IMG/VR virus record: IMGVR_UViG_3300024257_000003
Coordinates: 79,155-143,154 of that record
Strand: one strand, 5' to 3'
DNA: 64,000 nucleotides
DNA from: a virus
A program made the translations under genes and the position numbers. Positions 26,993 through 43,682 of this stretch are shown here, piece by piece (the first letter of the stretch is position 1; each line of letters opens with the position of its first letter). The notes under the pieces are model-generated. The model saw nothing but the letters and a program-made list of their open reading frames with translations. It made no database searches and was not told the DNA's origin.

Positions 26993-27462
26993 TAGACATT
27001 GCTCTCAGTGTGCGTCACCTGCAAGGAGAACTGCGACGTACCTATTGGGGCGGCCTTAGACATTGATACATAGATCCAGAAGGGGTAGTAAATCCTATCA
27101 GGGGATCCTACTGCTCCTAGCTCTGGTACGGTTGAGGTGTCCCCGTTGATCAGGGGAGATGCGAGCGTGGCTAGGGCGTTGCTTGGTGCGGCAGCCCACT
27201 CTGCATCGGTCGGCTTATTGTCTCCAGACAGGAGCTTGATGGAGACTGTCCCATCGACAATGTCCGCGCCAGCGGTAGAGGTTGGCTTAATCTCAATGGC
27301 ATCATACCACTTTGCCGCATCGTCATTCCTGAGGAATAGCTTCTTTACGAAGCCCGTTCCTCCTGGACGAATCCCAACTGCTATCGGATCTCCAAAGGTT
27401 GTAGCCGTAACCTCTGTAAATAGGAGAGTAGACTCATCAAGCCTATAGATCTTTACTGCCAT
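26992..27462 (-). CDS. Beta-sandwich virion protein, 156 aa
   Basis: A predicted beta sandwich: GFVKKLFLRNDDAAKWYDAI, TVSIKLLSGDNKPTDAEW and a C-terminal RIYYPFWIYVSMSKAAPIGT. The pattern 'LFLRND-...-WY-x-x-I ... Y-Y-P-F-W-v-x-v' is one I associate with small structural proteins of several large phages, without an assigned function. One-base overlap with the terminase stop suggests co-translation. Confidence 0.6.
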   Translation of the reverse strand: MAVKIYRLDESTLLFTEVTATTFGDPIAVGIRPGGTGFVKKLFLRNDDAAKWYDAIEIKPTSTAGADIVDGTVSIKLLSGDNKPTDAEWAAAPSNALATLASPLINGDTSTVPELGAVGSPDRIYYPFWIYVSMSKAAPIGTSQFSLQVTHTESNV

Positions 27463-29426
27463 TATCTTCTGCCTCTAAGTAAGTTTGATCTTCTAATCGG
27501 ACCACGGCCTCCGGGCTTTGATCCATTTCTTCTCGCTATCTGTCCTCTTACGTGATCCACTGCTTCCTTTGTTGGCATGGCTCCACCGGAGGTTCGAATG
27601 TGAGAAGGAGGTATGTAACCCTTATCTGCTTCGGCCATCTCTTCTTTCTTATTGCTCATCGCTAGCTTATGGATAGCTCTAGATCTAGGCCTACTTGATT
27701 CAGGTACAGAGCTGATTGTATCGCTTCCTGGGTGTCCTGTAAATCTAACAATAGGAATAATCTCAGGATTCCCCATCTTTGTGAACTTCATAGCAAATGC
27801 AAAGAGGGCAAGAATGAACGCATCAAGGGCGTGGTCCGGCAAATCGTCTGAGACCATCTTGTAGGATGGTCTTCCGTTCATTCCAATCTTGTCGATTACA
27901 TAACCTCTAAGCTGCCTCTCCAGGTCTGCGTCATACTTACTTAGCTGTATGTTCATCTCTTCGAAGGCTCTGATTGCATTCTCTACAATGGCAGGCTTTG
28001 CATAGACCTTATGCGTCTGCCCTGTGGTTGGGTGGCGGATTTCAATCTTGCTGCCAAAGTCAATTGCCTCGACAATTGACTCTAGTCTCTTGTCTGCTGT
28101 ATTGGGAGCTGCTGCTCTGCCGAACTCATTTAGATATTCGATCTGCATTGAGCCTGCGCCGCGATCAACATAAATTGCGACAGGGTTCCACTTCCTGTTT
28201 AGCCTTATGAGCTCTTGGATAGCCTGATACTGCGTGTTGCCTTCTCTGAAGACCTGCCCCTTATCGACAACCTTCCACTGCTTAAAGTCTGCAGAGGGGT
28301 CTACTCCTATCACATAGCACTCTGTACCGTTGACTGGGTTCCAGTCAACTCCCATTGCATAGATCCACCCTGGAGTGAATACCTGATCACTGTAGAAGTA
28401 GTCTCCGTCATCAATGGCCACATCAATATGGCCATGCTGGAATACGCCCTCATTAAGCTCGCCGTACTCAGCAAGAATCTCATGAATGTACTTAACGCCT
28501 AAGTTCTCTCTCTTCTGTTCTATCTCCATGTCCTCATCCCAATTGGGACGACACATAGAAGGATAGTGGAAGGATCTAAACTTGGGGTTTAGGTCCCACT
28601 TCCAGAACTGCTCTCTCGCTCCTGAGGGAGTAGAGGACACGCACATTACTGTGTCCTTGTGCTCTGAGAGGATTGCTACGATAGCAGAGAGGTCGCTTGT
28701 GGTTAGGTAGTCGCCCTCGTCGATAACAATCATATCTGCCGACTGGCCACGAATTGTTTCATTTCCCGATACGAAGCCTCTCATGAAGGATCCGTTGGCT
28801 AGCTTAAGAAACCTTTGGGGTGTCTTAACAAAGCGGTTACCAGGGGAGTCTAATGTGGAGGAGGTCTTGATGAACTCCATAGCGATGCTAAAGATGATGT
28901 CCAGCTGTGCGATGTTAGGAGTGATGACAAGGATTCTATATCCTTCCTCTGTGAACATCCGGTGGAGCATCTTCATTACAAGAGTCCAGGTCTTTCCACT
29001 TCGCCGGCCAATCCTATAGATCTGTCTACGGGCAGTGCATTTAACCATCATCTCCTGATAGTAGATAGACGACGGATCTAGGTCATACCTTTCAACATTC
29101 TCACCCGAGGCTCCCTGAGGGAGCCAAGGGCCTCTTATCTTTGTCTCCATATCAGGGACAGTAATATTGTCCTCAGCCCAGAGCACTGGATCCTTAGTCC
29201 TGGCGTAGGTCTCCATTCCCCGCTGGCCAAGGGCCTGCTGAATAATAGGGTCTGTAATCTGAACGACATGAGTCATAGGATCTGCTGGGATGCCGTCGCA
29301 CTTAATCGCGAACTCACCCTTAGCAACTATGGTCTTGCCGCTCTCCTCATCAATTATATCAGAGGTAGCCTTATTTCTTTGGATGCACATTACACATCCG
29401 GGATGGAGATCTTTAGCTTCTATCAT
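27462..29426 (-). CDS. terL: Terminase large subunit, 654 aa
   Basis: The ATPase has Walker A GRRSGKTW (140-147), Walker B MIVIDEGD (D236, E237) and the coupling motif SSTPSG (264-269). The nuclease domain begins MGVDWNPVNGTE (D361) and has a late acidic block DDLPDHALDAFILALFAF near 550. It packages DNA through the portal. The first 110 residues form an N-terminal extension with a CVMC pair that is longer than usual, and the last 80 are basic and disordered (PGGRGPIRRSNLLRGRR). Genes on both sides are within a few bases. Confidence 0.93.
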   Translation of the reverse strand: MIEAKDLHPGCVMCIQRNKATSDIIDEESGKTIVAKGEFAIKCDGIPADPMTHVVQITDPIIQQALGQRGMETYARTKDPVLWAEDNITVPDMETKIRGPWLPQGASGENVERYDLDPSSIYYQEMMVKCTARRQIYRIGRRSGKTWTLVMKMLHRMFTEEGYRILVITPNIAQLDIIFSIAMEFIKTSSTLDSPGNRFVKTPQRFLKLANGSFMRGFVSGNETIRGQSADMIVIDEGDYLTTSDLSAIVAILSEHKDTVMCVSSTPSGAREQFWKWDLNPKFRSFHYPSMCRPNWDEDMEIEQKRENLGVKYIHEILAEYGELNEGVFQHGHIDVAIDDGDYFYSDQVFTPGWIYAMGVDWNPVNGTECYVIGVDPSADFKQWKVVDKGQVFREGNTQYQAIQELIRLNRKWNPVAIYVDRGAGSMQIEYLNEFGRAAAPNTADKRLESIVEAIDFGSKIEIRHPTTGQTHKVYAKPAIVENAIRAFEEMNIQLSKYDADLERQLRGYVIDKIGMNGRPSYKMVSDDLPDHALDAFILALFAFAMKFTKMGNPEIIPIVRFTGHPGSDTISSVPESSRPRSRAIHKLAMSNKKEEMAEADKGYIPPSHIRTSGGAMPTKEAVDHVRGQIARRNGSKPGGRGPIRRSNLLRGRR

Positions 29427-30105: not shown

Positions 30106-30570
30106 CTAGCTCCTTGAGTTCAATGCAACCATACGATCGAATATAAAGTAGAACTTAGATTCATGTCGTGTGACCCTATCTTGATGACAGGACTTGCATA
30201 ATGTTATACCATTTTTTACATCCAAAGTCTTCTCTGGAAATAAATACTTCGGCCTAATGTGATGCACCTCTAGTTTCCCACCAAGGCGTCCACACATTTG
30301 ACACTGGAAGCAATCTCTTTTCAGAATATACTCCCTCCAATCTGCATACCAAGGTGTACCATACAAGGCTTTCGCCTCATCATAGTTTCTTGGAATCTTT
30401 CGTAGAGTCGCTGAAGCTGTCGAAGTCCTTGAGGTCCTTCTCTTCCTGCGAGGCTTCCTTGGAGAAGATTTAACAATCTTCGTACTCCTAGCCTTTCTTT
30501 TCTCTCGCTCTCTCTTCTTCCTCTCGAGCTCCTTTAGCTTCTTCTCTACTGCGTTACTCATACTTAACAT
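30106..30570 (-). CDS. HNH endonuclease, 154 aa
   Basis: The C-terminal half contains the HNH-type zinc fold: RDCFQCQMCG (first Cys pair), KLEVHHIRPKYLFP (HH), NGITLCKSCH (N and second Cys pair). The first 60 residues are a long Lys/Arg tail. HNH proteins next to the terminase often assist DNA packaging, but the free-standing, AT-richer gene could also be a homing nuclease. The start is uncertain (ATG at 30570 or 30561), and it overlaps the upstream gene by 17 bases. Confidence 0.85.
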   Translation of the reverse strand: MLSMSNAVEKKLKELERKKREREKRKARSTKIVKSSPRKPRRKRRTSRTSTASATLRKIPRNYDEAKALYGTPWYADWREYILKRDCFQCQMCGRLGGKLEVHHIRPKYLFPEKTLDVKNGITLCKSCHQDRVTRHESKFYFIFDRMVALNSRS

Positions 30571-31141
30571 GAGACAAAAACTTCAAATCCTCTGTGGCGG
30601 TCGCGTAAGCGATCATAGTTCCCTTACTTGCCTTAACAAAAAAGAGTGCGGCCTCCTCCATTGAGGAGTAGTCCTTCTTAAGGCCCCAATTACAGAGCGT
30701 CCCGTACCTCTTCTCCTGATCTTCATTCATGTAGGAAAAGACACAGGTGTTGTGGCCTGACAAATCGCCAAAGGCGTCAACCCACCTAAGGGTCAAAACC
30801 TTAACGTCAAAGACGCCAGGAACGAACTGAAGCATCTTGGCCGCATAGATGGCAAACTCATCGCAATCAGTCTGAAATTTCAATCCTGTCCTAATCTTTC
30901 TTTCTACCCATTCTGCTGATCTCATCCAGCCGTGCTTAATCTTTAGGCCAAAGGCCTCCACGACGTCCGCAGACCAAACCAGGAGGTTGAGGCGCTGGAC
31001 TGCCTGGATGACAGTGCCGTAGCGAGGGACCGGCAGGCCTGGCCAGAGCGTATCGTGGACCTTATTCGCGACCCTGCTAACAAAATAAGTCAACCAAAAG
31101 CTAAGCTTGGTCGCCGACCACCATATGATAATCTTCTTCAT
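30554..31141 (-). CDS. Papain/transglutaminase-like cysteine peptidase, membrane-anchored, 195 aa
   Basis: A candidate catalytic triad can be read as Cys93 in FQTDCDEFAIYAAKML, His130 in DLSGHNTCVFSY and Asn151 in YGTLCNWGL. This is the C-H-N/D order of transglutaminase-like cysteine peptidases. Residues 5-25 are hydrophobic (IIIWWSATKLSFWLTYF), giving a possible N-terminal membrane anchor. It could process virion or host proteins, or cut peptide crosslinks during entry. It overlaps the Rossmann protein gene by 41 bases, so the two are probably coupled. Confidence 0.65.
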   Translation of the reverse strand: MKKIIIWWSATKLSFWLTYFVSRVANKVHDTLWPGLPVPRYGTVIQAVQRLNLLVWSADVVEAFGLKIKHGWMRSAEWVERKIRTGLKFQTDCDEFAIYAAKMLQFVPGVFDVKVLTLRWVDAFGDLSGHNTCVFSYMNEDQEKRYGTLCNWGLKKDYSSMEEAALFFVKASKGTMIAYATATEDLKFLSHVKYE

Positions 31142-31565
31142 TGCAAACGTCCCTCCCTTTGCAGAACCTCACGACCTTTCTCATAACACCTGGCAGTTGT
31201 GTAATGGTATAGCTGCTGTAGTTCTCCATAAAGCTGTTACGTATCTCATTAATCCCGATAACATATGCACCAGAATTCTTTAAATCTAAAATTAGACAGT
31301 GTGTCTCACTGTACTCTTCTTCAAATCCTACGGCGATGACAAGATCTGTCTGATCTATTAGCAGTTCCCTCTCTTTCTTGGAGAGTGAGGCTATGTCTGC
31401 GCTACTTATTGACCTAATCTTTGAAGAATATGACAATCCTTTAGCCAATCCCAACGCTCTTGCGTGGTCATATGCCTCAGAGTTGGAAATTATTACAATA
31501 CTTACTGCATGTTTGATACGACTATAGATTATCTTGGAGATCTGTTCGTCGTTTATTGATTTCAT
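31101..31565 (-). CDS. Rossmann-type protein with sirtuin/SIS-like segment, 154 aa
   Basis: The segment DQTDLVIAVGFEEEYSETHCLILDLKNSGAYVIGINE (residues about 71-107, abridged) is a strand-loop-helix-strand unit similar to the second half of sirtuin-type NAD-binding folds (aDlviavG...gA-x-vi-x-IN). An earlier strand HAVSIVIISNS precedes it. The sugar-isomerase (SIS) fold is an alternative. No catalytic His of sirtuins is visible, so ligand binding rather than deacylation is likelier. The gene is AT-richer than its surroundings, like an inserted accessory gene. Confidence 0.5.
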   Translation of the reverse strand: MKSINDEQISKIIYSRIKHAVSIVIISNSEAYDHARALGLAKGLSYSSKIRSISSADIASLSKKERELLIDQTDLVIAVGFEEEYSETHCLILDLKNSGAYVIGINEIRNSFMENYSSYTITQLPGVMRKVVRFCKGRDVCNEEDYHMVVGDQA

Positions 31566-32443
31566 GCGTGGTAAGCCAATGCCTCCTGGCCAAAGGCAGA
31601 TCTTGCATTCATTTGGCTCCTTCTAATGGACTGCATCGCCCTCTGCCTCATTGTGGCAGCATAATCAGAGTCAATGAACTGACTCTTTCTGTTTACGGAC
31701 CTGCGTCCATGTCTATTCCCGAACTCTGAGATCTTCCATACCCCTTCAGCGGCCATCATGCCAACTTCAGCTCCTATAAGGCCACCAGCCACAAGGCCGA
31801 TGCCTCCTACAAGCATCCCACCCTTAGGAACCATCTTAATGGCGGCTGCGGCTCCAAGCCCAGCGCCAGTAATCGCTCCAGCCTCGGCACCAAGGTTGCT
31901 TGCAAGCTGCCTGGGCATCCCGTTTATGGGATCAAAGATATTATCATCAGTCATCATGGCCGACAGACCTGCCGTGGCGCCAAGGCTGACCATGCTTTTC
32001 ATCTGCCAAAGGTTATGTCCGACTCTGCCTAGGTGCTCTCCTGCTGATCTGGCTCCGAATCGCCTAACAGCTTGACCTGTCTTGGGGTTAATCTGCTTCC
32101 CGTACTGCTTAACAAACTCTTCTGGCTCGTAGCCCATTGCTCTTGCATAGTTTTGAGCTCCCATCCTATTGGGACCCATCTCTGCCATGGTGTCAGCAGT
32201 AGCCCTGAAGGCATTCATTTGGGACTGCTCGAACCTTCTGTGAGCTCGATAGCCCCCCACTCCGCTCCGTAGCCCTCCGCTTATTCCTGCAACGCCATGA
32301 TAGCCAGCCTTGGCAATCGTGCTGGCACCAAGGAAGGCAGCAGTCCCTCCGAAGGCGGCACCGCGATAAACCGCATTCCCCATCTTCCCAACAATATTTC
32401 TTTGGGCCTCACTATGTGCTTTAAGCTTATCCCACCAATTCAT
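31562..32443 (-). CDS. Gly/Ala-rich internal-virion-like protein, 293 aa
   Basis: Several hydrophobic glycine-zipper stretches (GAAFGGTAAFLGASTIAKAG, GAITGAGLGAAAAIKM, LVGGIGLVAGGLIGAEVGMM) alternate with charged helices. The C-terminal end RAMQSIRRSQMNARSAFGQEA is a distinctive basic helix. Such proteins can insert in membranes and are candidates for ejection with DNA. The start overlaps the preceding stop by one base, and the stop overlaps the Rossmann gene by 4. Confidence 0.65.
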   Translation of the reverse strand: MNWWDKLKAHSEAQRNIVGKMGNAVYRGAAFGGTAAFLGASTIAKAGYHGVAGISGGLRSGVGGYRAHRRFEQSQMNAFRATADTMAEMGPNRMGAQNYARAMGYEPEEFVKQYGKQINPKTGQAVRRFGARSAGEHLGRVGHNLWQMKSMVSLGATAGLSAMMTDDNIFDPINGMPRQLASNLGAEAGAITGAGLGAAAAIKMVPKGGMLVGGIGLVAGGLIGAEVGMMAAEGVWKISEFGNRHGRRSVNRKSQFIDSDYAATMRQRAMQSIRRSQMNARSAFGQEALAYHA

Positions 32444-33046: not shown

Positions 33047-36000
33047 TTAATTCCCTATATGGTGTTGAGTCCAATTTTCTGAATTCATCATCCTCTTACT
33101 CCAGCCGCGTGCAATCCTATTGCCTTCCATAAGGCCTCGCCTTGTGCGCGTGCTGCGCTTCACTGTATTAATAACCCCGTCTATTCGGTATCCAGACCCA
33201 AAGTCTCCAATGTTTGCTTGCCTGTTGGCTTGGGCCCATCCGTGTCTGAGTCCCTCCTGAATTGTGGAATCATCACGTCCTCCCGCAGCCTGCATTGCAG
33301 AAAGCTCAGTATCTGGATTCCGAATTCTGTGGACAATGCTCGAGGCCCTAAAATTTCCAAATAGTCTTTCCAGATCTGTAAACGCATTGTGCGTAATCTT
33401 TCTTTTCGCTCCCTTCTGGATATTGTGAGCCGCGCGCCAACCAGCATCTGACCACATTCCAGTCTCAGATTCGACTGCTTCCTCCTGAGCTCTGTTAAAA
33501 GCACGCGCATCGAATATTCTGTCTGAAGCCTTTCCAAAAGGTAGACTCGCCGCTGCCCCTTGGCGGACGAGCTGCAAGTTGAGGTTAACATTGTCATCGC
33601 CAAACAAAAGAGCGGGAGTACGACCATATGTAGATCCTGCGTTGGGATCGAAGACGGCAGTCATCGAGCTCTGTGAGGCCATTAGCTCTTCGAGCATCTC
33701 CGTTGCTCTCTCACCATATGGCTGATCTTGGAATACTTTATTAGATGCATACGCATCACCATGGGAGACCTCGGGAGCATCAATGCCGGCTAGACGTAAG
33801 GACATAGTATTCCCACCGCTAAGCATAAGCTTTACGGTGTCTGCATCTTCTATCTCATAGTCTGTGACCTTCTGCTGCCCTATCTGACCTTCATACCTCC
33901 TGTTCAAAGCATGGTCTAGCCCCTGCCAAGGGGAACCGAAGTCGGTCTTTTTGCTTCTGGTGGCGTCGGCAACACCCCCTCCGTGAGCCATGCCCTCCTC
34001 TGGATTTAGAGCGCGGTTGGAGCGGACCTGTCTCTCATAGAGAGTGCTAACAACCTGCTTGTCGCGCTTCAGTGCAGCCTCTTCTGATATCGCTCTGATC
34101 TGACGGCCGCCGCCCTCCTTCCTTACGATCTCACCATGACGCTTTCCTTTGCCTGTCCATTGTCCCAATGGACTCCCGTAGTCAATAATGCCAATGCGCT
34201 TGGCGCCTCTCTGGTCCGCAGTTAAGACAATGTTGCCAAAGTTGAGATCTCCATGACGCATCTGCTCGTGTAGTGTTGATACAGCTTCGTTTATGCGACC
34301 CAAGCCAACCTCTCTTAGCTCAGAAGGGGACAGGTCCTTCAAGGGAGACCCTTCAAAGTATTCCATGTCCATCTGTCCCTGGCGACCAGGACGGGCGGCA
34401 TAAACATCTGGCCCAACTGAGGAGCTAGCCTTGCTTGTCAAGGCAACCTCTGATTTAGGAATTCTCCCGGCCTTACGAACAAAATTGAATGACTGGCCTC
34501 TGAAATAGCCCTCCATGAGGTGAGCTTCGCCACTTGCTCCGGCACCAAGCCTCTTTACGCGAGTAGCAAGGGCGATGGCATCTTGGAAGCCAGGAGATCC
34601 TGTCATCTCAGCAAAGGTCTCTGCAGCTCTAGTCAATCCCCTGAGGGCATTCCAGCCAGAACCAAAGTCAGCAGTCTTCTTTCTTGCTGGCCCCTTAAAG
34701 CCTTCGTGCCTAAGTCCTTCGATGACGTTATAGGCATCATCCTTCCCAGAAATCTTTCCTGGCTCTATCTGCATCCCGGGATAATAGCCCTGAAACTTAG
34801 ACATGCGCTGGTGAGCACGACCGGCGTCGGACATGTCAAGATATCTAACTTTTCCTGCAACAATATCATCTGCAGCAGCCTGTGTGTGCAATAGCCTCCC
34901 AGAGGATGCTTCTATGACCGCTTGGTTGGCAGTCATGTCTGTCCCCTTGAAGAATGAGGGAAGGTCCTTTTGTATTTGCACATCAAAGAAGCTTTGATGC
35001 TTGGCCATTGCCCCATATACCTTATCTAAGCCGATGTCTCCTGTAACAAGAAGGTCAATGTCCTTAGACTGTCTTGTCCATTCGGGACGAAGACTTGACA
35101 CCAGATGCTCTCTGGCCACCCCTCCCTTAACATATAGATTGCCCCCCATTCCTGCAATCTCATCTGCCAATGCACCAACGCCAGCAATAGCAGCAGGGTT
35201 GTTCGGGTCTGATAGGCCCGCAGCCTCTGCGTTTGAGAATGCTGCAGATATGCCACCTTCTTCCTTTACAATCTTTGTTGGTCGTCCAATGTGCGACGGG
35301 TTATAATCCTCCGTCGAAACTCCTTTCAGAACTCTTACTTCAACTTCTCCCCTTAACCGGCGCGTTCCGCGCCGCAAGCCCTCAACCTTCTTTTGATGGA
35401 AAAAGTCTCTTAGAACTCCGGTCGCGGAAAAGCCCTCCAACTCTCTCCTTTCTATGAAATCAGTTCGACTCAGGGTCACGGCGTCAGTCTTTGGATCGTA
35501 ACTTCTGACAGCGTGCGGCTTGTCTGCGTGTCCGATTCTCGGCATCCGAAAATCTCTCGGCTTCATATCAGTCCGCAGAATCTTTTTTTCTGTGCTTTCG
35601 AATCGGATGCTTTGGTTACGAGTGTAGAGGTGTGCGCCCTCAGACATATCTAATTTAGAGAGCTCTTTTTCAGGTATAAAGAAGAAGGTGCTATCAGATA
35701 CAGAGCTGTTTCCAGTAGCGGAACTTTTCGCGTACGCAGACAGAAGCTCCTCACGGCTCCCCTTTTGCATTCGGCTTCCGTAAACGCCAACACTCCCTGC
35801 TTCATTCAAAGCATTGGAGCCTCCTGGAAGGAGTCGCTGCGTCTCGAGAATTGAATCGTGGGCGTAATTTGGAGCACCATGAGAGAACCCCGCTCCTAAA
35901 TCTAAAGTGCTTTTTGGCGTCCATGTTTTTTCAGGCCCTGCGGCTCGTATATTAATCTTTTCTGCGGCTGCTTCGTATCGTTCAATTTCCGGTCTTGACT

Positions 36001-36883
36001 TCTTAAAGGCCGCCAGATTCTTTCTATAATTCCGCCCCCCTTTGCCCAAGAGCCCCTTTGCCGCCTTTAGCCCAAGACCTATCCCGGCTCCGCCGAGTGC
36101 AGCTGTAAGGGACGGGGTTATACTGCTATAGGCCGCCATTCCGCCGACCGCCGCGCCCCATCCAGCTCCTCCGCTGCCAATATATGAGAAAGCCCTGTCA
36201 AGATCTAGGAGGGGGATCTCTCTCCTTAGTTCTCCATATCCATATTTTTTGGTTCTTGACCAAAGGTCCTTAGCCTTGGTTAAGGCCCCCCTCCAACCAG
36301 AACCAAAGTCAGTATTGTGCTTACGGGTTTGCCCAGCAAAACCCGCATGCTTCATTCCCTCTATATAGTTATATTCATCATCAGAACCAGAAAAGAGTAG
36401 CCCAACGCCAGCAATAGCAGCTGCTCCTCCAGCTAGAAGTCTCCAGTTGCTTTTGATCCCACGCATGGCACGTGCGCTAGTGCCCTCTGGAGCCTCCTTA
36501 GCGGCTGTTGCAACCGAGGCGGTAGGGTTGGATGGATTAGGGGCAGAAGCCCCCACAGAGGGGGCTGTAGGGGCAGCAAGGGCCATATCATCGGGGTGCC
36601 ATGGCAGACTTGTCTCAGCGGTTGGAACATGAGGAACATGAGCCCATCCTCCTGGAGCTCTAGGGGCGTATACCTTGTGCTCTGGGGTGCCCCAAGCAGG
36701 AGCAGTTCCAGTGGTCTTATATATACTGTCTAGAACATCCCAAGCGGCCTGACCTCTTGCACCCTTTAGCTCGTCTGCAGAGAGTCCCCCCATGAGCTTA
36801 GAGACTCGCTTCGCATGAGCGCCCAGATCATTAGAGGCATCCCAATTGGTTTTACCTGCTGCGAAGTCGTCTATGGCTGACAA
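33047..36883 (-). CDS. Multi-enzyme giant virion protein: NTase, kinase and thermonuclease-like domains, 1278 aa
   Basis: Domains in order: hydrophobic segment 148-165 and Gly-zipper region 235-280; a nucleotidyltransferase-like region about 580-690 (NLYVKGGVAREHL, QSKDIDLLV); a protein-kinase-like domain about 775-905 (LGAGASGEAHL glycine loop, MEYFEGSPL hinge, RHGDLNFGN catalytic loop, IGIIDYG); and a staphylococcal-nuclease-like domain about 1005-1145 (DADTVKLML, LRLAGIDAPE, YGRTPALLF). A motif H-x-GF...RK..DFGSGW recurs near 178-197, 725-744, 966-986 and 1212-1232, separating these units. Probably packaged and injected; the motif could be a cleavage or targeting signal. Confidence 0.75.
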   Translation of the reverse strand: MSAIDDFAAGKTNWDASNDLGAHAKRVSKLMGGLSADELKGARGQAAWDVLDSIYKTTGTAPAWGTPEHKVYAPRAPGGWAHVPHVPTAETSLPWHPDDMALAAPTAPSVGASAPNPSNPTASVATAAKEAPEGTSARAMRGIKSNWRLLAGGAAAIAGVGLLFSGSDDEYNYIEGMKHAGFAGQTRKHNTDFGSGWRGALTKAKDLWSRTKKYGYGELRREIPLLDLDRAFSYIGSGGAGWGAAVGGMAAYSSITPSLTAALGGAGIGLGLKAAKGLLGKGGRNYRKNLAAFKKSRPEIERYEAAAEKINIRAAGPEKTWTPKSTLDLGAGFSHGAPNYAHDSILETQRLLPGGSNALNEAGSVGVYGSRMQKGSREELLSAYAKSSATGNSSVSDSTFFFIPEKELSKLDMSEGAHLYTRNQSIRFESTEKKILRTDMKPRDFRMPRIGHADKPHAVRSYDPKTDAVTLSRTDFIERRELEGFSATGVLRDFFHQKKVEGLRRGTRRLRGEVEVRVLKGVSTEDYNPSHIGRPTKIVKEEGGISAAFSNAEAAGLSDPNNPAAIAGVGALADEIAGMGGNLYVKGGVAREHLVSSLRPEWTRQSKDIDLLVTGDIGLDKVYGAMAKHQSFFDVQIQKDLPSFFKGTDMTANQAVIEASSGRLLHTQAAADDIVAGKVRYLDMSDAGRAHQRMSKFQGYYPGMQIEPGKISGKDDAYNVIEGLRHEGFKGPARKKTADFGSGWNALRGLTRAAETFAEMTGSPGFQDAIALATRVKRLGAGASGEAHLMEGYFRGQSFNFVRKAGRIPKSEVALTSKASSSVGPDVYAARPGRQGQMDMEYFEGSPLKDLSPSELREVGLGRINEAVSTLHEQMRHGDLNFGNIVLTADQRGAKRIGIIDYGSPLGQWTGKGKRHGEIVRKEGGGRQIRAISEEAALKRDKQVVSTLYERQVRSNRALNPEEGMAHGGGVADATRSKKTDFGSPWQGLDHALNRRYEGQIGQQKVTDYEIEDADTVKLMLSGGNTMSLRLAGIDAPEVSHGDAYASNKVFQDQPYGERATEMLEELMASQSSMTAVFDPNAGSTYGRTPALLFGDDNVNLNLQLVRQGAAASLPFGKASDRIFDARAFNRAQEEAVESETGMWSDAGWRAAHNIQKGAKRKITHNAFTDLERLFGNFRASSIVHRIRNPDTELSAMQAAGGRDDSTIQEGLRHGWAQANRQANIGDFGSGYRIDGVINTVKRSTRTRRGLMEGNRIARGWSKRMMNSENWTQHHIGN

Positions 36884-36886: not shown

Positions 36887-37747
36887 CTACTCCTTTTCCT
36901 CAGTAATCTGTGCCTGTAGTTGCTTAACTCTCTTCATTAGTTCAGACATGTGCACAGAAGCGTCCTTAACATTCTCACCCTCTCGAGCGGTCATGACTCT
37001 TTGTTCTCTTCTGGTCCCTACTAGTTCCTTACGAAGACGATCCTTCCGCGCCCACAACTTCTCCTTAATCTTCATAAGGTCAGCTACATCCTTTACATAG
37101 TTGTCTACAATGTCTCCCGCCTTAGTAGTTGTAGTACTAACAAGCTTCTCTTCTGTAAGTCCTTGCAGTTCAGGCTCCGACGCAAGCTTTGCGTTGACCC
37201 TGCTCTCTAATAGTTCTATCTCTGCAAGTTCTAGTATGAACCTTTGGTCTGTATACTCTTCCTCTCTTCCGGTCACATCAAACTCTATGGAAAGCTTTTG
37301 TACTGCATCATGTAGGATGTCTGTCTCTATTGGGCATGCCCTTCCTATTGGAACAACCCGACGACTCTCCCCTGATCTATCTATCTCCTCTTGGAGGCTT
37401 ACATAAGGACAGGTGCGGGCACGGGGACAAACCTCTGGGCCCCAGCAGGTCATGATCTGCTGTATAGAAGCACCAGTCTTCATACGCTGGTGAGCGGTCC
37501 TTAGGCCGCGAGCTTCTTCAGCTGTGAGTTGAATATCAGTATAGGCGCCAGAGGCAAGCTTCATCCCGTCGAACCAGTTGTGCCTTACAACATCCCCGCC
37601 TTCAGTTATCGCTGTCCCATTAAATGAGACAAGTGCCATCTTATCTCCTTTGGGAACCTTCTCTAGTATAGGGAGCTTCTTAGGAGAAGGCTTCTCTTGG
37701 TCTACTATAGGAAGACCATCTTCGTATTCTGGGATCCATTCATCCAT
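36887..37747 (-). CDS. Cys-cluster protein with helical C terminus, 286 aa
   Basis: Residues about 100-145 hold a Cys cluster: MTCWGPEVCPRARTCPY and, 25 residues later, GRACPIE. Four or five cysteines suit a zinc or iron-sulfur site. The C-terminal 120 residues are a charged helix (LKIKEKLWARKDRLRKELVG, LMKRVKQLQAQITEEKE). The position upstream of the packaging genes makes a small-terminase-like or DNA-binding role conceivable, but nothing proves it. Its ATG overlaps the previous stop as TAATG. Confidence 0.6.
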   Translation of the reverse strand: MDEWIPEYEDGLPIVDQEKPSPKKLPILEKVPKGDKMALVSFNGTAITEGGDVVRHNWFDGMKLASGAYTDIQLTAEEARGLRTAHQRMKTGASIQQIMTCWGPEVCPRARTCPYVSLQEEIDRSGESRRVVPIGRACPIETDILHDAVQKLSIEFDVTGREEEYTDQRFILELAEIELLESRVNAKLASEPELQGLTEEKLVSTTTTKAGDIVDNYVKDVADLMKIKEKLWARKDRLRKELVGTRREQRVMTAREGENVKDASVHMSELMKRVKQLQAQITEEKE

Positions 37748-38075: not shown

Positions 38076-38496
38076 CTGTGCGGAGGGATCCTTGCTTTAA
38101 TTCTTCTAGTTGCGCGGGTGAGAGATTCATCTCAATGATAGAAGAAGTCTTCTTGTCACCAGACTCTGGCGGGTCTGGTGCTATCCACTTAAAGGCCATG
38201 GAGACAAGTGCGGCGGCGATGAGAGAAGCGACAATAGATATGACCGCCCACTTCCCACTAAAGGTCGCGCCGGTGGTCTCTAGCTCCCTCAACCTCTTCT
38301 CTTGATCTACGTCCTTCGATTCCAATACGTTGACCTTTACTTTTAGTTTGGTCAACTCCTCGGGATGATAGCCTATCATCCTGCCCTTAAGTTCTTGTAC
38401 GTCCCCGCTTATCTTTTCATAGTTATCATTTAATCTTTCTAGTTCTTTTAGCACATGGCGGGACCACTCATTCCACCCATTTTGATCATTGCTCAT
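38065..38496 (-). CDS. Coiled-coil membrane protein, holin/XhlA-like candidate, 143 aa
   Basis: Residues 15-75 are a coiled coil (LKELERLNDNYEKISGDVQE, KVNVLESKDVDQEKRLRELE). Residues 83-103 form one transmembrane helix (AVISIVASLIAAALVSMAF), followed by a polar 40-residue tail. Coiled coil plus single helix is the layout of XhlA-type lysis accessory proteins, although XhlA ends soon after the helix. No endolysin is visible next to it, so a lysis role stays tentative. It overlaps the PAS gene by 4 bases. Confidence 0.6.
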   Translation of the reverse strand: MSNDQNGWNEWSRHVLKELERLNDNYEKISGDVQELKGRMIGYHPEELTKLKVKVNVLESKDVDQEKRLRELETTGATFSGKWAVISIVASLIAAALVSMAFKWIAPDPPESGDKKTSSIIEMNLSPAQLEELKQGSLRTVAS

Positions 38497-38948
38497 TGTA
38501 GATCTCCCCGCTGTTTTTTGCTATTAGGGCAAATTTGACAAGGAGAGGGCCAGAGGCGACCAAAGGTATAGGTCTCACTCTCGTCATGCCTGGACCAGCT
38601 AGTCCAAAGAACTGTAACGTACTCCCCTTCTTTAGTCCTCAGCCGATTAGAAGTCACAAAGTACCCCAACTCTTGTGGACTTCTTGCATGCATAACCCTT
38701 TCGATTTTTTCCCTATCCTCAGGATGAATGATATCGGAGATAGACCTCCCTTTAATTTCACTCTTTGAATACCCCAGTTCACGCAAGGCCCTGGGGTTGC
38801 AGTCTTCTATGATCAAATCGTTGAAGATAAAGATCATGTCAGGACAAGAGTTGTAGAAGTCCTCGAGCTGAGAATTCCTCTTTGCCAACTCATCGTCCCT
38901 TCTGTTCAAAGCTATCGTTAGCTTCTTCAGTTCGGTCAGTGTTTTCAT
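38493..38948 (-). CDS. PAS-domain protein, 151 aa
   Basis: The ATG at 38948 (MKTLTELKK) is preferred over an upstream TTG. A short coiled coil (about 5-30) leads into a PAS domain: LEDFYNSCPDMIFIFNDLII, CNPRALRELGYSKSEIKGRS, DIIHPEDREKIERV and RTKEGEYVTVLWTSW. These are the classic PAS elements (N-box, F-G-Y-x-x-x-E-x-x-G, 'i-HPeD', 'K-dG-x-x-x-v'). PAS domains sense ligands or redox state and mediate dimerisation. No output domain is present, and the end has a CQIC pair. Unusual in a phage. Confidence 0.82.
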   Translation of the reverse strand: MKTLTELKKLTIALNRRDDELAKRNSQLEDFYNSCPDMIFIFNDLIIEDCNPRALRELGYSKSEIKGRSISDIIHPEDREKIERVMHARSPQELGYFVTSNRLRTKEGEYVTVLWTSWSRHDESETYTFGRLWPSPCQICPNSKKQRGDLQ

Positions 38949-39288
38949 GATTACATCCAATAGGCGGGAGTACGGTTCAATAACAATAGAAAGCCCTTCC
39001 GGTGCGGGACGAGAATGGGTTCTAAAAAAATATGGGAAAGGGAGGGAAATATAGGGGAAAAATAAGGGAAGGCTGAAGGATTGAATATAGAGGAAAATAG
39101 GGAAAACATAGGAAAAATAAGGGAGGACCTAGTGTAAGTGTTGGGAGTAGTAGGGTACCTATCGGTGCGAGCCCCTACCCCGACGACTTGGATAGCATGT
39201 TGCTATCACACTGGGCATAACGTCCAACAACCAGAGAAGTAGCAGGCATATCGTCTGTCTTCTCTATGCATGACTTAGGAGTTATATC
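38949..39288. promoter_or_regulatory. Strand-switch region with purine tract
   Basis: This 340-base gap separates the minus-strand virion module from the plus-strand genes. Bases 39034-39057 contain four G-runs with short loops (3, 1 and 7 bases), a canonical G-quadruplex pattern; GGGAAA-like units continue to about 39140. A 7-bp hairpin (arms GATAGCA and TGCTATC) is at 39191-39207. Promoters for both directions should lie here, but I cannot fix convincing -35/-10 pairs. GGAGTTATATC precedes the next ATG. Confidence 0.5.
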
Positions 39289-40095
39289 ATGCAGTCCATC
39301 ATCACCTCCATCATCGCCCTGTCCGATCACCTGTACCACGCCCTCATCAACGCGATCGACACGCAGGATGCTGTGGCGCGCTGCTACGATGCGATCTGGT
39401 ACTACCACGCACAGGTCCGCATCGACAACGGGCACAAGACCGAGACCTTCACCCGTGAGGGTGACAGCGTCATGCGTGAGGTGGTGTACAACGCCTCCAT
39501 CATGGGCAAGGCCAGTCGCAAGCTGGCTGTCACCGGTCACGCGCAGGTGCTCATGGATGTGAGCAAGCTGTCCTTCACCCACACCTATGCTCGTGAGCCC
39601 CAGGCACACACGAGTCAGGTGAAGGTCACCATCGTGTACCCTGCGGCCAAGGCTGAGCCCACTGACCTCGAGGTGCGCCTCGCCTACGAGGAGTGGATGA
39701 ACATCCAGGGCCACCTGGAGCCCAAGGAGGAGGCCAAGGCTGAGGCTGATGCTGAGGTGGTGGAGGATGAGCACGTGGTGGAGGACTACTGGTACCTCAT
39801 GGAGGACTACACCAAGGAGGATGCCCTCCACCTGGAGCGCAGCACGATGGGCAAGGACCGTAAGGCGTGGGATAGGCCCAACCGGGTGCTGGAGGTGGCC
39901 ATGGAGGCACAGGCCAAGGCCCGTGAGGAGGAGGCAGAGGCCCTGTACCAGAGGGAGATGGCTGAGGCCAAGGCCCTCTGGGAGGCCAAGGTTGAGCTCT
40001 TCAAGAAGGTGAAGGGTGGCATGCCCAAGTACCCCCGAACCCACTATGGTAAGCCCATGCCTCGGGCCTACTGGAAGGAGGTGTTCGGGGGCTAG
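39289..40095 (+). CDS. Unknown protein with acidic coiled-coil C terminus, 268 aa
   Basis: First gene on the plus strand, with GGAG 7 bases before the ATG. Residues 1-120 form a mixed alpha/beta domain (IITSIIALSDHLYHALINAI, RKLAVTGHAQVLMDVSKLSF, SQVKVTIVYPAAKAEPTDLE). About 145-250 is highly charged and helical (EPKEEAKAEADAEVVEDEHV, ALYQREMAEAKALWEAKVEL). GC-rich third positions mark it as coding in this frame. A divergent shadow frame exists on the other strand. Function unknown. Confidence 0.7.
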   Translation: MQSIITSIIALSDHLYHALINAIDTQDAVARCYDAIWYYHAQVRIDNGHKTETFTREGDSVMREVVYNASIMGKASRKLAVTGHAQVLMDVSKLSFTHTYAREPQAHTSQVKVTIVYPAAKAEPTDLEVRLAYEEWMNIQGHLEPKEEAKAEADAEVVEDEHVVEDYWYLMEDYTKEDALHLERSTMGKDRKAWDRPNRVLEVAMEAQAKAREEEAEALYQREMAEAKALWEAKVELFKKVKGGMPKYPRTHYGKPMPRAYWKEVFGG

Positions 40096-40325
40096 GTAGC
40101 ATAGGTATGGTGACCCCTCTTCGGAGGGGGCTCCATATGGGTACATGTGGGGTGTATGGTGTATGCCATATGCTACTACGTGTACCCATATGGGGTACTG
40201 TATAGGTAGTAGGGTATAGCCCTGCTACTGGTACCACTGGGCATACCACATGGGGTGGTGTGCTATAGCAGGGGGGTGTATAGCCCGAGCCCCCCTCTGT
40301 GTATAGTAGGGCATAGGGGTACTAT
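40096..40325 (+). other. Structured intergenic region
   Basis: A hairpin with arms CCCCTC and GAGGGG around TTCG (about 40116-40131) follows the stop. The rest repeats short units: CATATGGGTAC-like strings at about 40133, 40188 and 40248, and ACTAC/TACTGGTACC strings, that allow alternative pairings. No convincing gene is seen. It probably belongs to the leader of the 67-residue gene. Confidence 0.45.
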
Positions 40326-40529
40326 ATGTACGTCATCAAGACCGAGTGGGCCCGCTACGTGCGAGGGACGTTGAGGGACGTTGAGGTGCGCCTCAGCGTC
40401 GTGACCCACGAGGAGGCCAAGCGGCTTCTCCGCACTGAGGTCCCCCTCGTGGGGAGGTCCCTCCAGGGGATCTCCTCCCATGTGGGGGACCGACTGAGCG
40501 TCCCCACCTGGACGCTGGTCAGCGAGTAA
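40326..40529 (+). CDS. Small protein, 67 aa
   Basis: Starts MYVIKTEWARYVRGTLRDVE and contains RLSVVTHEEAKRLLRTEVPL, ending SVPTWTLVSE. A beta-alpha-beta arrangement is plausible. The start has only GGGG at 7 bases upstream. No family recognised. Flanked by structured RNA on both sides. Confidence 0.55.
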   Translation: MYVIKTEWARYVRGTLRDVEVRLSVVTHEEAKRLLRTEVPLVGRSLQGISSHVGDRLSVPTWTLVSE

Positions 40530-40629
40530 GGTGATGGGGCACACGACTGTCGTGAGACAGCCGTGTGTTTAAACCACAGGACCGGTCCAAAGTCCGGTCC
40601 AAGCAGCCCCAAGGGGCATAGGAGTAGTC
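40530..40629 (+). promoter_or_regulatory. Leader with three hairpins
   Basis: Hairpins: arms CACACG plus CTGTC pairing with GACAG plus CGTGTG around GTGA; arms GGACCGG and CCGGTCC around 8 bases; and arms GCCCC and GGGGC around AA, ending just before the ATAGGAG Shine-Dalgarno site of the 61-residue gene. The last hairpin placed 5' of the ribosome site recurs before other genes in this region. Confidence 0.6.
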
Positions 40630-40815
40630 ATGATTGATTCCACCAAGCGGGTCACCCTCGATGAGGTGTTGGAGTTGTCGGGTGTGGAGGACCAGAGGGT
40701 CTTCGCCTGGGAGCAGTGGGTCGTCAAGGGCAAGGGGGTCCAGGTGACCCTGGACGTCGACTTCGACGAGAAGACCCACAAGTACAAGGAGATCCACATC
40801 TTCATCGGGCGTTAG
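40630..40815 (+). CDS. Small protein, 61 aa
   Basis: The ATG follows ATAGGAG. Helix LDEVLELSGVEDQRVFAWEQ is followed by strands GKGVQVTLDVDFDE and YKEIHIFIGR. A small alpha/beta fold; no family recognised. The stop codon lies in the loop of a 9-bp hairpin (40803-40824), so translation ends inside the terminator-like structure. Confidence 0.65.
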   Translation: MIDSTKRVTLDEVLELSGVEDQRVFAWEQWVVKGKGVQVTLDVDFDEKTHKYKEIHIFIGR

Positions 40816-40824
40816 CGCCCGATG
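40803..40824 (+). terminator. Terminator-like hairpin holding the stop codon in its loop
   Basis: Nine-bp arms CATCGGGCG and CGCCCGATG enclose TTAG, whose TAG is the stop of the 61-residue gene. A second small hairpin (AGCCC/GGGCT) follows. No U-run follows, so transcript-end protection or factor-dependent termination is more likely than simple intrinsic termination. Confidence 0.55.
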
Positions 40825-40859
40825 AGCCCTTCCCCACCGGGCTAAAGGTGGGTGTTCCA

Positions 40860-40985
40860 CATAGGCGCATCAGGGGTAACACCTTGGATGCGTCTTATAT
40901 GGGGCATAGGCACATGTTGTGCCACCCCTTGGTGCAGGTACGCACCATACACGCCCTATTGGGCACATTAGATAGGAGCTCACCC
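40860..40985 (+). promoter_or_regulatory. Structured 5' leader, copy A
   Basis: Contains CATCAGGGGTAACACCTTGG (40868-40887) within a hairpin closed by GCGCATC/GATGCGT, and CACGCCCTATTGGGCA (40950-40965) forming a small hairpin GCCC/GGGC just before the Shine-Dalgarno site of the 91-residue gene. Both segments recur upstream of the 195-residue gene (copy B), while the surrounding sequence differs. A conserved regulatory RNA is inferred. Confidence 0.6.
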
Positions 40986-41261
40986 ATGAGCAAGTCCAAC
41001 GTCGGCAACGAGAGCCAGTTCATCAACTTCGTTAATGGTTTGTGCGCGGGAAGCCTGTTGCAGTTCGCCATCATCGGCCTCCACACGGCCGCCTGGAAGA
41101 AGGACCAGCTGGGGACTGCCAGGCTCCGGCAGTTGGGCCAGTACCACGATGACACCACCAGCCGGTTGATCCTCTCCAACGGCGTCGTCGTGGACGTGGA
41201 TTGGGGCTTCCAAAAGGGGCAGTCCGCCCATCGCCTCTGGTGGCGCGTGCGCTCTAACTAG
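40986..41261 (+). CDS. Small protein, 91 aa
   Basis: The ATG at 40986 is chosen because GATAGGAGC lies 7 bases upstream and the conserved leader hairpin ends there; the same frame is open further upstream without a start that fits. Contains a helix QFINFVNGLCAGSLLQFAII, a charged segment and strands RLILSNGVVVDVDWGFQ. No family recognised. Confidence 0.65.
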   Translation: MSKSNVGNESQFINFVNGLCAGSLLQFAIIGLHTAAWKKDQLGTARLRQLGQYHDDTTSRLILSNGVVVDVDWGFQKGQSAHRLWWRVRSN

Positions 41262-41291
41262 AGCAGCGCAGGCCGCCTGAATAAGCCCTCT

Positions 41292-41438
41292 CCCCCGTCG
41301 GGCTACAATAGACGGGGGATCACATGAGGACATCAGGGGTAGCACCTTGGCGTTCTGATGTGGTTTCTAGGGACATGCCGTCCCCATTGGGCAGTTTCGC
41401 CCATCACGCCCTATTGGGCATACATGAAAGGCCATACC
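41292..41438 (+). promoter_or_regulatory. Structured 5' leader, copy B
   Basis: An 8-bp hairpin (arms CCCCCGTC and GACGGGGG, loop GGGCTACAATA) is followed by CATCAGGGGTAGCACCTTGG (41331-41350) inside a hairpin closed by ACATCAG/CTGATGT. Next come GGGCA/CGCCC pairings and CACGCCCTATTGGGCA (41405-41420) before TGAAAGG and the ATG. Shares two blocks with copy A and the first hairpin with the region at 43413. Confidence 0.6.
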
Positions 41439-42026
41439 ATGGCTACCTTCATTCGTTCCTCCCTCCTCCTCGCCCTCCTGTTCATCTGTGCCGGTTGCGG
41501 CACCAACCCGATGGCCTTCGGGCCGTTGGGGTGTTTCGTTTTCTCGTTCATCTTCCTCTTGGCGGGGCTGATGCCCACTAAGGCGGTGATCAAGGACGAC
41601 GACGAGGAGACCGAGACGATGTCCTCCCCTGAGTGGGAGGTCCAGGAGTTCCCCGCTCTGGAGATCAAGGGGGAGGTGTGCTGGCCCGAGTGGCTGGAGA
41701 TCTGCGAGGAGGCCTGGACCGAGCAGGCCAAGGCTGATGAGAACGCCCGTTTGGCGGCGTGGATCGAGCAGAGCAAGGCCACCATCAGGACCCGACAGGC
41801 CGAGTCCAAGCGGATCGGCAACTGGATTGAGCAGCAGCGCATCAAGCGGTGGGTCGCGGCCCAGGAGGAGAAGGCCGCCAAGAAGGCGTGGAAGGACGCT
41901 GAGTACGCCCGCCGCTGCAAGGCGGCGCGTCAGGCCTGCGTGCTCGCCGAGCAGGAGGCGCAGGATGAACCCCTCCTGGAAGAGAGGATCGAGGAGTTCC
42001 GAAAGGAGATCCTCTCCTCCCTCTAG
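41439..42026 (+). CDS. Membrane protein with lipoprotein-like start and helical tail, 195 aa
   Basis: The ATG at 41439 follows GAAAGGCCATACC, a start context nearly identical to that of the gene at 45000. The N terminus SSLLLALLFICAGCGTN resembles a lipoprotein signal, but the residue at -3 (Cys) is atypical. A second hydrophobic segment (PLGCFVFSFIFLLAGLM) follows at about 30-48. Residues 55-195 are a long charged helix (WIEQSKATIRTRQAESKRIG, KRWVAAQEEKAAKKAWKDAE). Possibly a membrane-tethered coiled coil. Confidence 0.65.
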   Translation: MATFIRSSLLLALLFICAGCGTNPMAFGPLGCFVFSFIFLLAGLMPTKAVIKDDDEETETMSSPEWEVQEFPALEIKGEVCWPEWLEICEEAWTEQAKADENARLAAWIEQSKATIRTRQAESKRIGNWIEQQRIKRWVAAQEEKAAKKAWKDAEYARRCKAARQACVLAEQEAQDEPLLEERIEEFRKEILSSL

Positions 42027-42161
42027 TTTAGAATCACGATTCGATAGTCGTCCTGAGAGCTGGGACGTTAAACTGCTCACATTAGCAGCAACCCATGGTG
42101 GGAAGCTGCTTAACTGGGGTAGCCAATCCCCAAGCCCCGTGATGGGGTAAAGGAGTATACC
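42027..42161 (+). promoter_or_regulatory. Structured leader of the zinc/membrane gene
   Basis: Short hairpins include GGGGT/ATCCCC around AGCCA (about 42116-42131), and CCCC/GGGG around GTGAT placed directly before AAAGGAG and the GTG start. No gene is visible in these 135 bases. Confidence 0.5.
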
Positions 42162-43211
42162 GTGAAGAACATTGCCAAGAAGATTGGTTTCGTCTTGGGT
42201 GCCGCGATCGGCATCATCATGTTGGCCGTGATCGCGAAGTTCGTGCTGGGCATCGTCCAGCACCTGGTCACCATGGCCCTCCTGGCCGGACCCCTCCTGT
42301 TCGCCTTCCCCGCCGCTCGGCGGCGGGTGTTGGTGCTGCTGAACAAGAAGGGCCAGAAGCTCAAGGAGGCCATCGAGGGGACGCCCGCCTGGAAGGGGCG
42401 GCAGGGCGTCAAGGACGCCATCCAGGCGGGGCTTGAGAAGCAGTGGGAGTCGTTCAAGTCGGCCGCCAAGGCCGACGTGGAGGGGGAGGAGACCCAGGAG
42501 TTGTGCGACGGGTGCGGGAACATCCCGTTCTCCTGCTCCTGCGCGACGATGTCGCCGGAAGATGTGGCTGAGGCCGTCTGGCAGATGGAGGGGGAGCCTG
42601 CGCCCTGGCAGCCCACCCTAATCGAGGGTGGGCTGGGGGAGGCCGTGGAGCTGTGCCCGGTCTTCGGGGTGGCCAAGCACTCGTGCGCCGGTTGTGACAA
42701 CGGGCAGCACGAGGACCCCAACTTCGTGGACGAGATGGTGGATGATGACGGCATCCCCGCACCGAAGGACGGTCAAGTGGCGTGCTCCACCTGTGGGTGG
42801 CCCCATGGGCCGAATGGGTGTCGCAACTGTGACGACCCCATCTGCCTTGGCCGGGACGATGATATGTACGAGTACTGCGGCGGGTGTGGCGAGACTTTCG
42901 AGAGCTGCCACTGTTGTGGCGAGCATGAGGCGGTGAAGGTGGAGGTCAAGGTGGAGGAGAGGCAGTGCTCCTGTTGTGCCATCGAGGGCAACGCGAGGAC
43001 GGAGGCGTACTGTTGGTTCCACTCCGAGCAGGAGCGGGAGGGGGCGCTCCTGTCGGTGGCGGAGGCCGAGGAGTTGGCCATCTGCGTGAAGGCCGCGCAG
43101 GACGCCGTGCGACTCCTGGACGACCGCTTGGAGTGGGCCGCCAAGGCCCACGCAGGGACCGACTTCGACGCCTGGTGGGCCTGCCGTCAGGGTTGGAAGG
43201 GGGAGAAGTGA
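42162..43211 (+). CDS. Membrane protein with five Cys clusters, 349 aa
   Basis: Starts at GTG after AAAGGAG. Residues 7-50 hold two hydrophobic helices (FVLGAAIGIIMLAVIAKFVL, LVTMALLAGPLLFAF), then a basic helix. The following 170 residues carry Cys groups at 115/118/125/127, 165/175/178, 208/211/220/223/228, 239/242/249/251/252 and 269/271/272/284, typical of tandem zinc knuckles. The C-terminal helix (about 295-330) is acidic. It could be a membrane-anchored zinc-ribbon protein that binds nucleic acid or host protein. No family recognised. Confidence 0.7.
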   Translation: MKNIAKKIGFVLGAAIGIIMLAVIAKFVLGIVQHLVTMALLAGPLLFAFPAARRRVLVLLNKKGQKLKEAIEGTPAWKGRQGVKDAIQAGLEKQWESFKSAAKADVEGEETQELCDGCGNIPFSCSCATMSPEDVAEAVWQMEGEPAPWQPTLIEGGLGEAVELCPVFGVAKHSCAGCDNGQHEDPNFVDEMVDDDGIPAPKDGQVACSTCGWPHGPNGCRNCDDPICLGRDDDMYEYCGGCGETFESCHCCGEHEAVKVEVKVEERQCSCCAIEGNARTEAYCWFHSEQEREGALLSVAEAEELAICVKAAQDAVRLLDDRLEWAAKAHAGTDFDAWWACRQGWKGEK

Positions 43212-43399
43212 GGAAGCTGAGCTGCGAGAAGGCGGTCAGGCTTTTGGCCTGTGCCTCCACGGTGGCTGGCTACTACGGGCCTATCCCGCCGGTCAAGCGG
43301 GATGAACTGGTTCAGGCCCTCGGGGTGACGCCCGAGGAGATCGATGCCTGGTGGAACAACCAGATGAGCATCGAGTGGGACGGCGCCTCCAAGCACTAG
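43208..43399 (+). CDS. Small helical protein, 63 aa
   Basis: The GTG start overlaps the upstream stop (GTGA) and is preceded by a purine-rich Shine-Dalgarno in the end of the upstream gene, indicating coupled translation. Sequence: helix LSCEKAVRLLACASTVAGYY and VKRDELVQALGVTPEEIDAW. The second half resembles a small helix-turn-helix, but too short to assign. Confidence 0.6.
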   Translation: MRKLSCEKAVRLLACASTVAGYYGPIPPVKRDELVQALGVTPEEIDAWWNNQMSIEWDGASKH

Positions 43400-43682
43400 T
43401 CCCACAGCCGTACCTAGTCCGGCATTATAATAGACTAGGACTCCCTCCTGTTATCACGATCTCCTATCGTGGTATGAGAAGGGTGCTGAACAAGTGCCCT
43501 TACAATCTGTTCTCCATGGGTCATGGAGGGTCTAGTGTGTACCCAACACACTCCCTGGCTCTAGGGTTACCAAGAGCTAGTATGCACAACCCCGGCCAAA
43601 AACAGGGGGAGGATAATGGCGTGTAACCGACGCTGCAAGTCCCGTATGGGACTGTTGCCCGAAAGGGCAGAAAGGCTCCAAC
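43400..43682 (+). promoter_or_regulatory. Ornate structured intergenic RNA with TGAACAA and CATGGGTCATG hairpins
   Basis: Sequential hairpins: CCTAGTC/GACTAGG (43413-43439, loop containing TATAATA); TATCACGAT/ATCGTGGTA around CTCCT; AGGGTGC/GTGCCCT around TGAACAA (43480-43500), followed by TTACA; CTCCATG/CATGGAG around GGT (43512-43528); GTGTGT/ACACAC; GTCCC/GGGAC; and GCCC/GGGC around GAAA just 5' of AGAAAGG and the ATG. Several of these units recur in the regions at 41.3, 44.7 and 45.8 kb. A TATAAT box occurs at 43426-43431 without a clear -35. Confidence 0.65.

Follow-up and report, generated by a model that had tools for sequence, protein, structure and literature searches.

The window analysed here, a 64,000-nucleotide stretch (positions 79,155 to 143,154) of the 143,154-base uncultured-virus record IMGVR_UViG_3300024257_000003, encodes on its minus strand a 1278-residue protein (33047-36883) in which three enzyme folds, a nucleotidyltransferase (NTase), a protein kinase and a staphylococcal-nuclease-like domain (SNase), are joined in one polypeptide. 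Their presence is confirmed, by sequence for the SNase and by predicted structure for the kinase and NTase. In related phages the same frame holds different enzymes, an arrangement suggestive of a modular toolkit, which the particle may bring into the host. The best explanation, which we rate slightly better than even, is that this is a phage protein of the polyvalent type, a particle-borne string of enzyme cassettes on a common frame. The frame is open for 1278 codons from a TTG start (36883-36881); an AAGGAG ribosome-binding site (36895-36890) lies 6 bases upstream, and the stop codon of the upstream gene ends 3 bases before the TTG. A second record of the same phage in the same collection (204,008 bases) encodes an identical protein.

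A preliminary description of this gene had quoted NTase-, kinase- and thermonuclease-like motifs and read them as three enzyme domains in a single protein. All of the quoted motifs are present in the translation, and the reading holds, through a family search for the SNase and through predicted folds for the other two. Profile searches, proposed there as a check, gave a mixed outcome: clear for the SNase, marginal for the kinase when this protein is taken alone (Pfam, E 0.024-0.044), and without any hidden Markov model match for the NTase. Structure prediction, the other proposed check, placed the kinase and NTase on the expected folds and not on unrelated ones. The SNase (residues 1029-1146; 33446-33799, minus strand) is securely identified from its sequence, matching PF00565 at E = 3.2e-14 (53.7 bits against a curated cut-off of 21) and staphylococcal nuclease at 3.3e-7 by phmmer. 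Alignment to the latter shows that the Asp, Arg, Asp, Glu and Arg active-site positions, which we take to be the catalytic ones, are kept. A Pfam scan of the entire protein at E<=10 returned only SNase, TCAD9, ABC1 and Kdo, polyvalent-associated domains being sought there among Pfam families only.

The kinase (residues 763-941; 34061-34597, minus strand) is assigned from alignment and predicted fold. Kinase domains of relatives score clearly in Pfam (Pkinase, 9.7e-11 in locus L005; APH, 3.6e-9 in L008), and a 16-row alignment keeps the VAIK Lys, the alpha-C Glu, the HxD Asp and the DFG-type Asp/Gly, with the Asn nearly invariant. The AlphaFold2 model has a mean predicted local distance difference test score (pLDDT) of 75.9; it gives 1722 Foldseek matches at E<=0.001, the best 50 of which are all kinases, and VIA Z up to 11.8. 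Alignment and model together point to a protein-kinase fold with its catalytic residues retained. The NTase (residues 555-686, KGGVARE...SKDIDLLV; 34826-35221, minus strand) is predicted to adopt a fold like the head of CCA-adding enzymes. Most of this block has pLDDT 52-87, within a model of mean 40.9, and its best structural alignments by VIA are to the heads of CCA-adding enzymes (Z up to 9.2, root-mean-square deviation 2.8, 114 aligned residues). Because the best Foldseek E is only 0.047, the assignment is made at the level of fold and not of sequence; GG and DxD are kept in all three NTase sequences at hand (this protein, L053 and L078).

The preliminary description did not include the family's defining feature, a repeated motif with the consensus FSGxDDxYNTIEGLxHxGxAxxxRKxxTDFGSGW over about 34 residues. 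Its four copies in the 1278-residue protein, all on the minus strand, lie before a segment that we call region X (copy 1, residues 164-197; 36293-36394; E = 9.2e-24), at the NTase/kinase junction (copy 2, residues 711-744; 34652-34753; E = 1.7e-22), at the kinase/SNase junction (copy 3, residues 958-986; 33926-34012; E = 3.4e-11) and past the SNase (copy 4, residues 1201-1232; 33188-33283; E = 1.9e-7); copies 1 and 2 are in the motif model, copies 3 and 4 are not. Small alignments of the motif, searched against viral contigs, yielded two overlapping sets of 10 and 46 loci. Motif loci, terminase loci and the window together supplied 42 distinct open reading frames (ORFs), and with 6 near-duplicates dropped the family comprises 93 copies in 36 non-redundant proteins, all but the present one from other uncultured-virus contigs. 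Contig ends truncate several of these proteins, at the start in at least L017, L033, L050 and L053. Conservation is highest in DFGS (F 99%, G 97%, S 100%), followed by G18 (96%), G13 (93%), N9 (92%) and R24 (90%), figures that are inflated for part of the copies because the fetching patterns included DD[EAN][YH]NTIE and [KRQ]xT[DE]FGSG[WYF][DRQ] and because copies needed 12 bits. A profile search at E<=10 detected the motif nowhere else in the 143 kb record. The whole 1278-residue protein had no tblastn match in 50,697 phage records, and scans of viral contigs with the whole protein and with the NTase piece recovered only the identical protein in the same phage's other record. A prophage search of genome contigs with one pattern returned 10 stretches, none confirmed, which is weak evidence of absence.

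The motif belongs to a frame of which slot position, motif and basic C-terminal tail are near-constant across the family. The genes of 33 of the 36 motif proteins share one slot beside the terminase (slot A), always followed by a conserved 293-residue neighbour, dn293 (31562-32443, minus strand). A conserved 286-residue neighbour that marks the slot, up286 (36887-37747, minus strand), precedes the motif gene in 27 of these 33 loci, and the other six start at a contig edge. The terminase gene lies downstream in 32 of the 33 stretches, and for L007 it is found in a longer stretch of the same contig, L022. Slot mapping also gave extra short profile matches upstream in L005, L013 and L046. In the window the gene stands in a minus-strand cluster with those for the large terminase subunit of the packaging module (27462-29426), the portal protein (22644-24716), the major head protein and the tail sheath; its placement in a structural module, as first described, is thus a conserved one, between the 286-residue gene and the terminase and portal genes. 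In the C-terminal tails of slot-A proteins the net charge of the final 38 residues averages +6.0, compared with +0.6 for 38-mers drawn at random, and is positive in 32 of 33; in the present protein the tail spans residues 1233-1278 (33050-33187, minus strand) and ends ...HHIGN. A Gly-His tail pattern, written after the tails were seen, occurs in 20 of the 33 (random mean 0.94). The genes of the other three motif proteins come after those for sheath, tube and a putative chaperone, and these tail-slot proteins are without a basic tail (net charge +1, -2 and -1).

A hydrophobic helix is a further, less regular part of the frame. In the 1278-residue protein a Gly/Ala-rich helix lies directly before motif copy 1, at about residues 145-164 or 145-167 (the former being 36392-36451, minus strand), so that the membrane-type segment noted previously does exist; it is only moderately hydrophobic, with a best 19-residue Kyte-Doolittle mean of 1.69. 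In 26 of the 36 proteins a hydrophobic 19-mer (mean >=1.2) lies at most 35 residues before at least one motif, where 2.9 would be expected, and usually before exactly one copy (23 proteins); at a stricter threshold of 1.4 the count is 19 against 1.9. The N-terminal region ahead of the helix (residues 1-144; 36452-36883, minus strand) yielded no relative among the motif proteins. Region X (residues 198-540; 35264-36292, minus strand), between motif copy 1 and the NTase, consists of a second Gly-rich hydrophobic stretch and then a module of which residues ~314-540 are common to L053 only. An ADP-ribosyltransferase suspected there by eye is not claimed, since the region gave no Pfam match and no confident model.

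Upon this frame the payloads vary. Over the 36 proteins, 19 carry a kinase and 13 an SNase; six have both and ten have neither. Pfam adds an RNase_H_2-type exonuclease (L008, L041, L046 and L052) and an OspG-like kinase. Other exonuclease- or RecB-like N-terminal domains in relatives were seen as short patterns only and are not counted, and GNAT-like segments appeared by pattern with no Pfam match. Loss of a cassette is seen in L053, which has region X and the NTase, a single motif, the SNase, a motif and the tail, and which is without exactly the kinase cassette that lies between motifs 2 and 3 in the present protein; the two align at 38% over 474 positions and 48% over 342. More generally, when motifs are masked, 32% of internal homology edges are no more than 15 residues from a motif, compared with 15% after shifting, and none of 1000 shifts gave as high a value, in a test that uses non-independent pairs. 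In L019, a terminase relative without a motif match, the product of the gene after up286 (4377-6161, plus strand) begins like an exonuclease, with DVETTG, and also contains a hydrophobic helix and a degenerate DDDNYN...IEKL stretch; by its sequence it may be a member of the motif family that is minimal or has decayed.

An indirect link to the virion comes from the tail slot. The motif proteins there (L011, L012 and L062, plus L073 of record G020) carry the motif in an N-terminal extension. Their homologue in Acinetobacter phage ME3 is ME3_35, which has the annotation of virion structural protein. In record G020 both slots are occupied by motif proteins. The present phage has its own motif-less copy of 1270 residues (N-terminal two thirds at 2-2482, minus strand), which also matches ME3_35 (E = 8.8e-57). 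This homologue is a probable tape measure, by a chain that runs from the 1270-residue protein to ME3_35, from the note on ME3_35 naming YP_001429636, and through an offset to gp146 of phage 0305phi8-36; the offset is taken from the note on ME3_9 (p112 = YP_001429602), and that step is inferred. In the published account of 0305phi8-36, gp146 is assigned as the tape measure (PMC2147016). SNase domains also occur inside very large ORFs of named relatives, in a 2333-residue ORF of ME3 (ME3_37, annotated as baseplate hub) and in a 2235-residue ORF of Moorella phage MTATph1 (CDS0032, annotated as endolysin). No such domain was found in KLEB27-3, and the present phage's own 2026-residue homologue of the hub protein has no SNase match. 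Profile searches found up286 homologues near the terminases of ME3, KLEB27-3 and MTATph1. The ME3 homologue, ME3_9 (KU935715.1, 4078-5373; E = 1.8e-51), is labelled RNA (guanine-N1-)-methyltransferase, a label that may be doubtful. As separate observations, the tail-slot protein of L012 contains an intein with a LAGLIDADG signal by Pfam (residues 1307-1739), and in the alignment inserts of ~370-410 residues, possibly inteins, interrupt the terminase genes of L092 and L094.

These comparisons make carriage of the 1278-residue protein in the virion, and its injection, a well-motivated hypothesis, in keeping with the preliminary description, which proposed an injected multi-effector that would act on host targets early in infection. 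The common frame of hydrophobic helix, repeated motif and basic tail carries interchangeable NTase, kinase and SNase modules. In the most likely course of events, judged from its position in the head and packaging cluster, the gene would be expressed alongside those of the head proteins; motif and tail would then attach the chain to a component inside the virion, and the chain would exit with the DNA via the tail, the hydrophobic helix helping it to meet or cross a membrane. In the host, to judge from fold, the kinase would modify proteins, the SNase would cut nucleic acid and the NTase would act on RNA ends, perhaps of tRNA. A wider proposal, tentative and on balance doubtful, is that the motif is a general loading and ejection tag of an undescribed large-phage lineage, such that any enzyme between copies, on the terminase-side or the tape-measure protein, is packaged and delivered through the tail.

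Several results weigh against particle-borne cassettes. In the kinase model pLDDT is about 36-43 over the motif, and because of this low confidence no docking surface is visible. The motif was not found by tblastn in any of the 50,697 phage records, nor was it found in the terminase-side stretches of ME3, KLEB27-3 and MTATph1. The phage's own probable tape-measure protein has no motif by profile, and in 28 of 29 motif-bearing records, many of them fragments, the motif is confined to one protein. With the threshold applied, ten of the 36 proteins have no clear hydrophobic helix ahead of a motif copy, and region X stands without Pfam match or confident predicted model.

The strongest competitor, in our view somewhat unlikely but also compatible with virion delivery, is a polyprotein with a processing site formed by, or lying within, the motif, whose chain the prohead protease or embedded metallopeptidases would cut into separate enzymes, in the head or after delivery. 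The motif does sit at module junctions, the phage encodes a homologue of the annotated prohead protease of KLEB27-3 (20705-22654, minus strand), HExxH occurs by pattern in 12 of the 36 proteins, and such processing has been proposed for polyvalent proteins (Iyer et al., 2017; PMC5512222). However, the ~30 conserved positions are more than a cleavage site should need, the 1278-residue protein itself lacks HExxH, and a pattern search of the window found the motif in no other ORF, the capsid protein included. An unpackaged protein, acting late in the infected cell as a membrane-tethered multi-enzyme in host nucleic-acid breakdown, tRNA handling and protein phosphorylation, would agree with the hydrophobic helix of many members and with a cluster position that predicts late expression as well as virion incorporation. 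We consider it unlikely, since proteins homologous to an annotated virion structural protein bear the motif and since, in named relatives, giant tail proteins contain SNase domains.

Two further readings are each very improbable. Were the motif a mere DNA recombination joint for cassette swapping, with no role as a peptide, the gain or loss of cassettes seen at its boundaries would be expected. Copies within a protein are also slightly more alike than copies between proteins (0.528 vs 0.499; 4 of 2000 shuffles as high), which slightly favours shared ancestry of copies inside a protein, and synonymous codons are shared slightly in excess at matched motif residues (778 of 1708, against 709 expected from codon usage), more clearly so in the present protein (39 of 78 against 27.8). 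Yet this excess is small while several residues are 90-100% conserved across proteins; as codon agreement is only slightly above expectation, it is the peptide and not the DNA that is conserved. That the enzyme folds are vestigial, in a purely structural protein, would suit a gene in a structural cluster but not the retention of the kinase Lys, Glu, HxD, Asn and DFG-type positions, the SNase active-site positions and the NTase GG and DxD. The polyvalent-type, particle-borne string of cassettes is kept as the best-supported reading; docking or ejection by the motif, processing at it and an unpackaged late enzyme are each compatible with the sequence.

The surroundings of the slot hold other features. 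One gene from the terminase lies an HNH endonuclease (30106-30570, minus strand; E = 5.3e-11), homologues of which adjoin the terminase in several relatives. Next to it, a 195-residue protein (30554-31141, minus strand) has a DCDE...GHNT pattern reminiscent of cysteine peptidases of the transglutaminase-like kind; it has no Pfam match, and its only relative is in L053. Two genes upstream of up286 is a PAS-domain protein (38493-38960, minus strand; PAS_3, E = 3.5e-11), odd company for a phage packaging cluster. Three tail-tube-like paralogues stand in tandem after the sheath gene (4089-6252, minus strand). G+C content rises from about 0.50 to 0.57-0.64 over about 40000-52000, and long ORFs are present on both strands over 46082-49738, where a plus-strand ORF of 1188 residues has no Pfam match.

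If the motif proteins are delivered, the lineage would offer, ready in nature, an inventory of injected enzymes that can be recognised by their address tag, and the slot beside the terminase could be read for new anti-host or anti-defence enzymes. Two questions become testable: how non-structural enzymes are loaded into large-phage particles, and how injected effectors are exchanged. A true loading and ejection tag would mean a modular code for protein delivery, in which lineages exchange effector cassettes in the manner of polymorphic toxins; a motif that is instead a processing site would define a phage polyprotein system.

As a general kind, such proteins are already known. Polyvalent proteins are phage polypeptides with multiple disparate enzyme domains, and their co-injection with the DNA is predicted (Iyer et al., 2017; PMC5512222). 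Like the 1278-residue protein they join unrelated activities in one chain, and kinases, Pol-beta NTases, GNATs and metallopeptidases are listed among them (PMC5512222). At least two disparate domains in one chain, the mark of the group, are found here in the SNase, kinase and NTase fold. The main text of that account is without SNase, staphylococcal nuclease, linker or transmembrane, and the proteins it describes differ in other ways: its kinases are a distinct set in which residues are inserted between the phosphotransfer His and the Asp, whereas the present kinase reads HGDLNFGN with no insert; its NTases are minimal, NTox45-like and mostly from firmicute mobile elements; and no repeated joining motif, as in the 1278-residue protein, was found described there (PMC5512222). 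Literature searches found the motif strings in no paper of the library searched, and no description of this cassette architecture among reports of phage proteins joining SNase, kinase and tail functions. The NTase module shares the head-domain fold and GG...DxD with class II CCA-adding enzymes and tRNA nucleotidyltransferases, but only ~130 head-like residues are present and no neck, body or tail region was recognised; the model is low-confidence past its residue 380 (residue 679 of the protein), where these would come, and motif copy 2 follows at residue 711. In ME3_37 and MTATph1 CDS0032, as here, an SNase sits in a giant structural-cluster protein, in those distant relatives a hub or lysin protein and here instead a terminase-side multi-enzyme. 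The closest likeness to the motif, drawn by description only, is paralogue family a of 0305phi8-36, a Bacillus phage of a distantly related lineage, in which a ~50-residue repeat found in six ORFs has one domain edge at a module junction and was proposed to anchor enzymes to the virion (PMC2147016). The family a proteins differ in being mainly tied to external fibres (PMC2147016); by analogy, they would provide a precedent for repeats that anchor enzymes to a virion.

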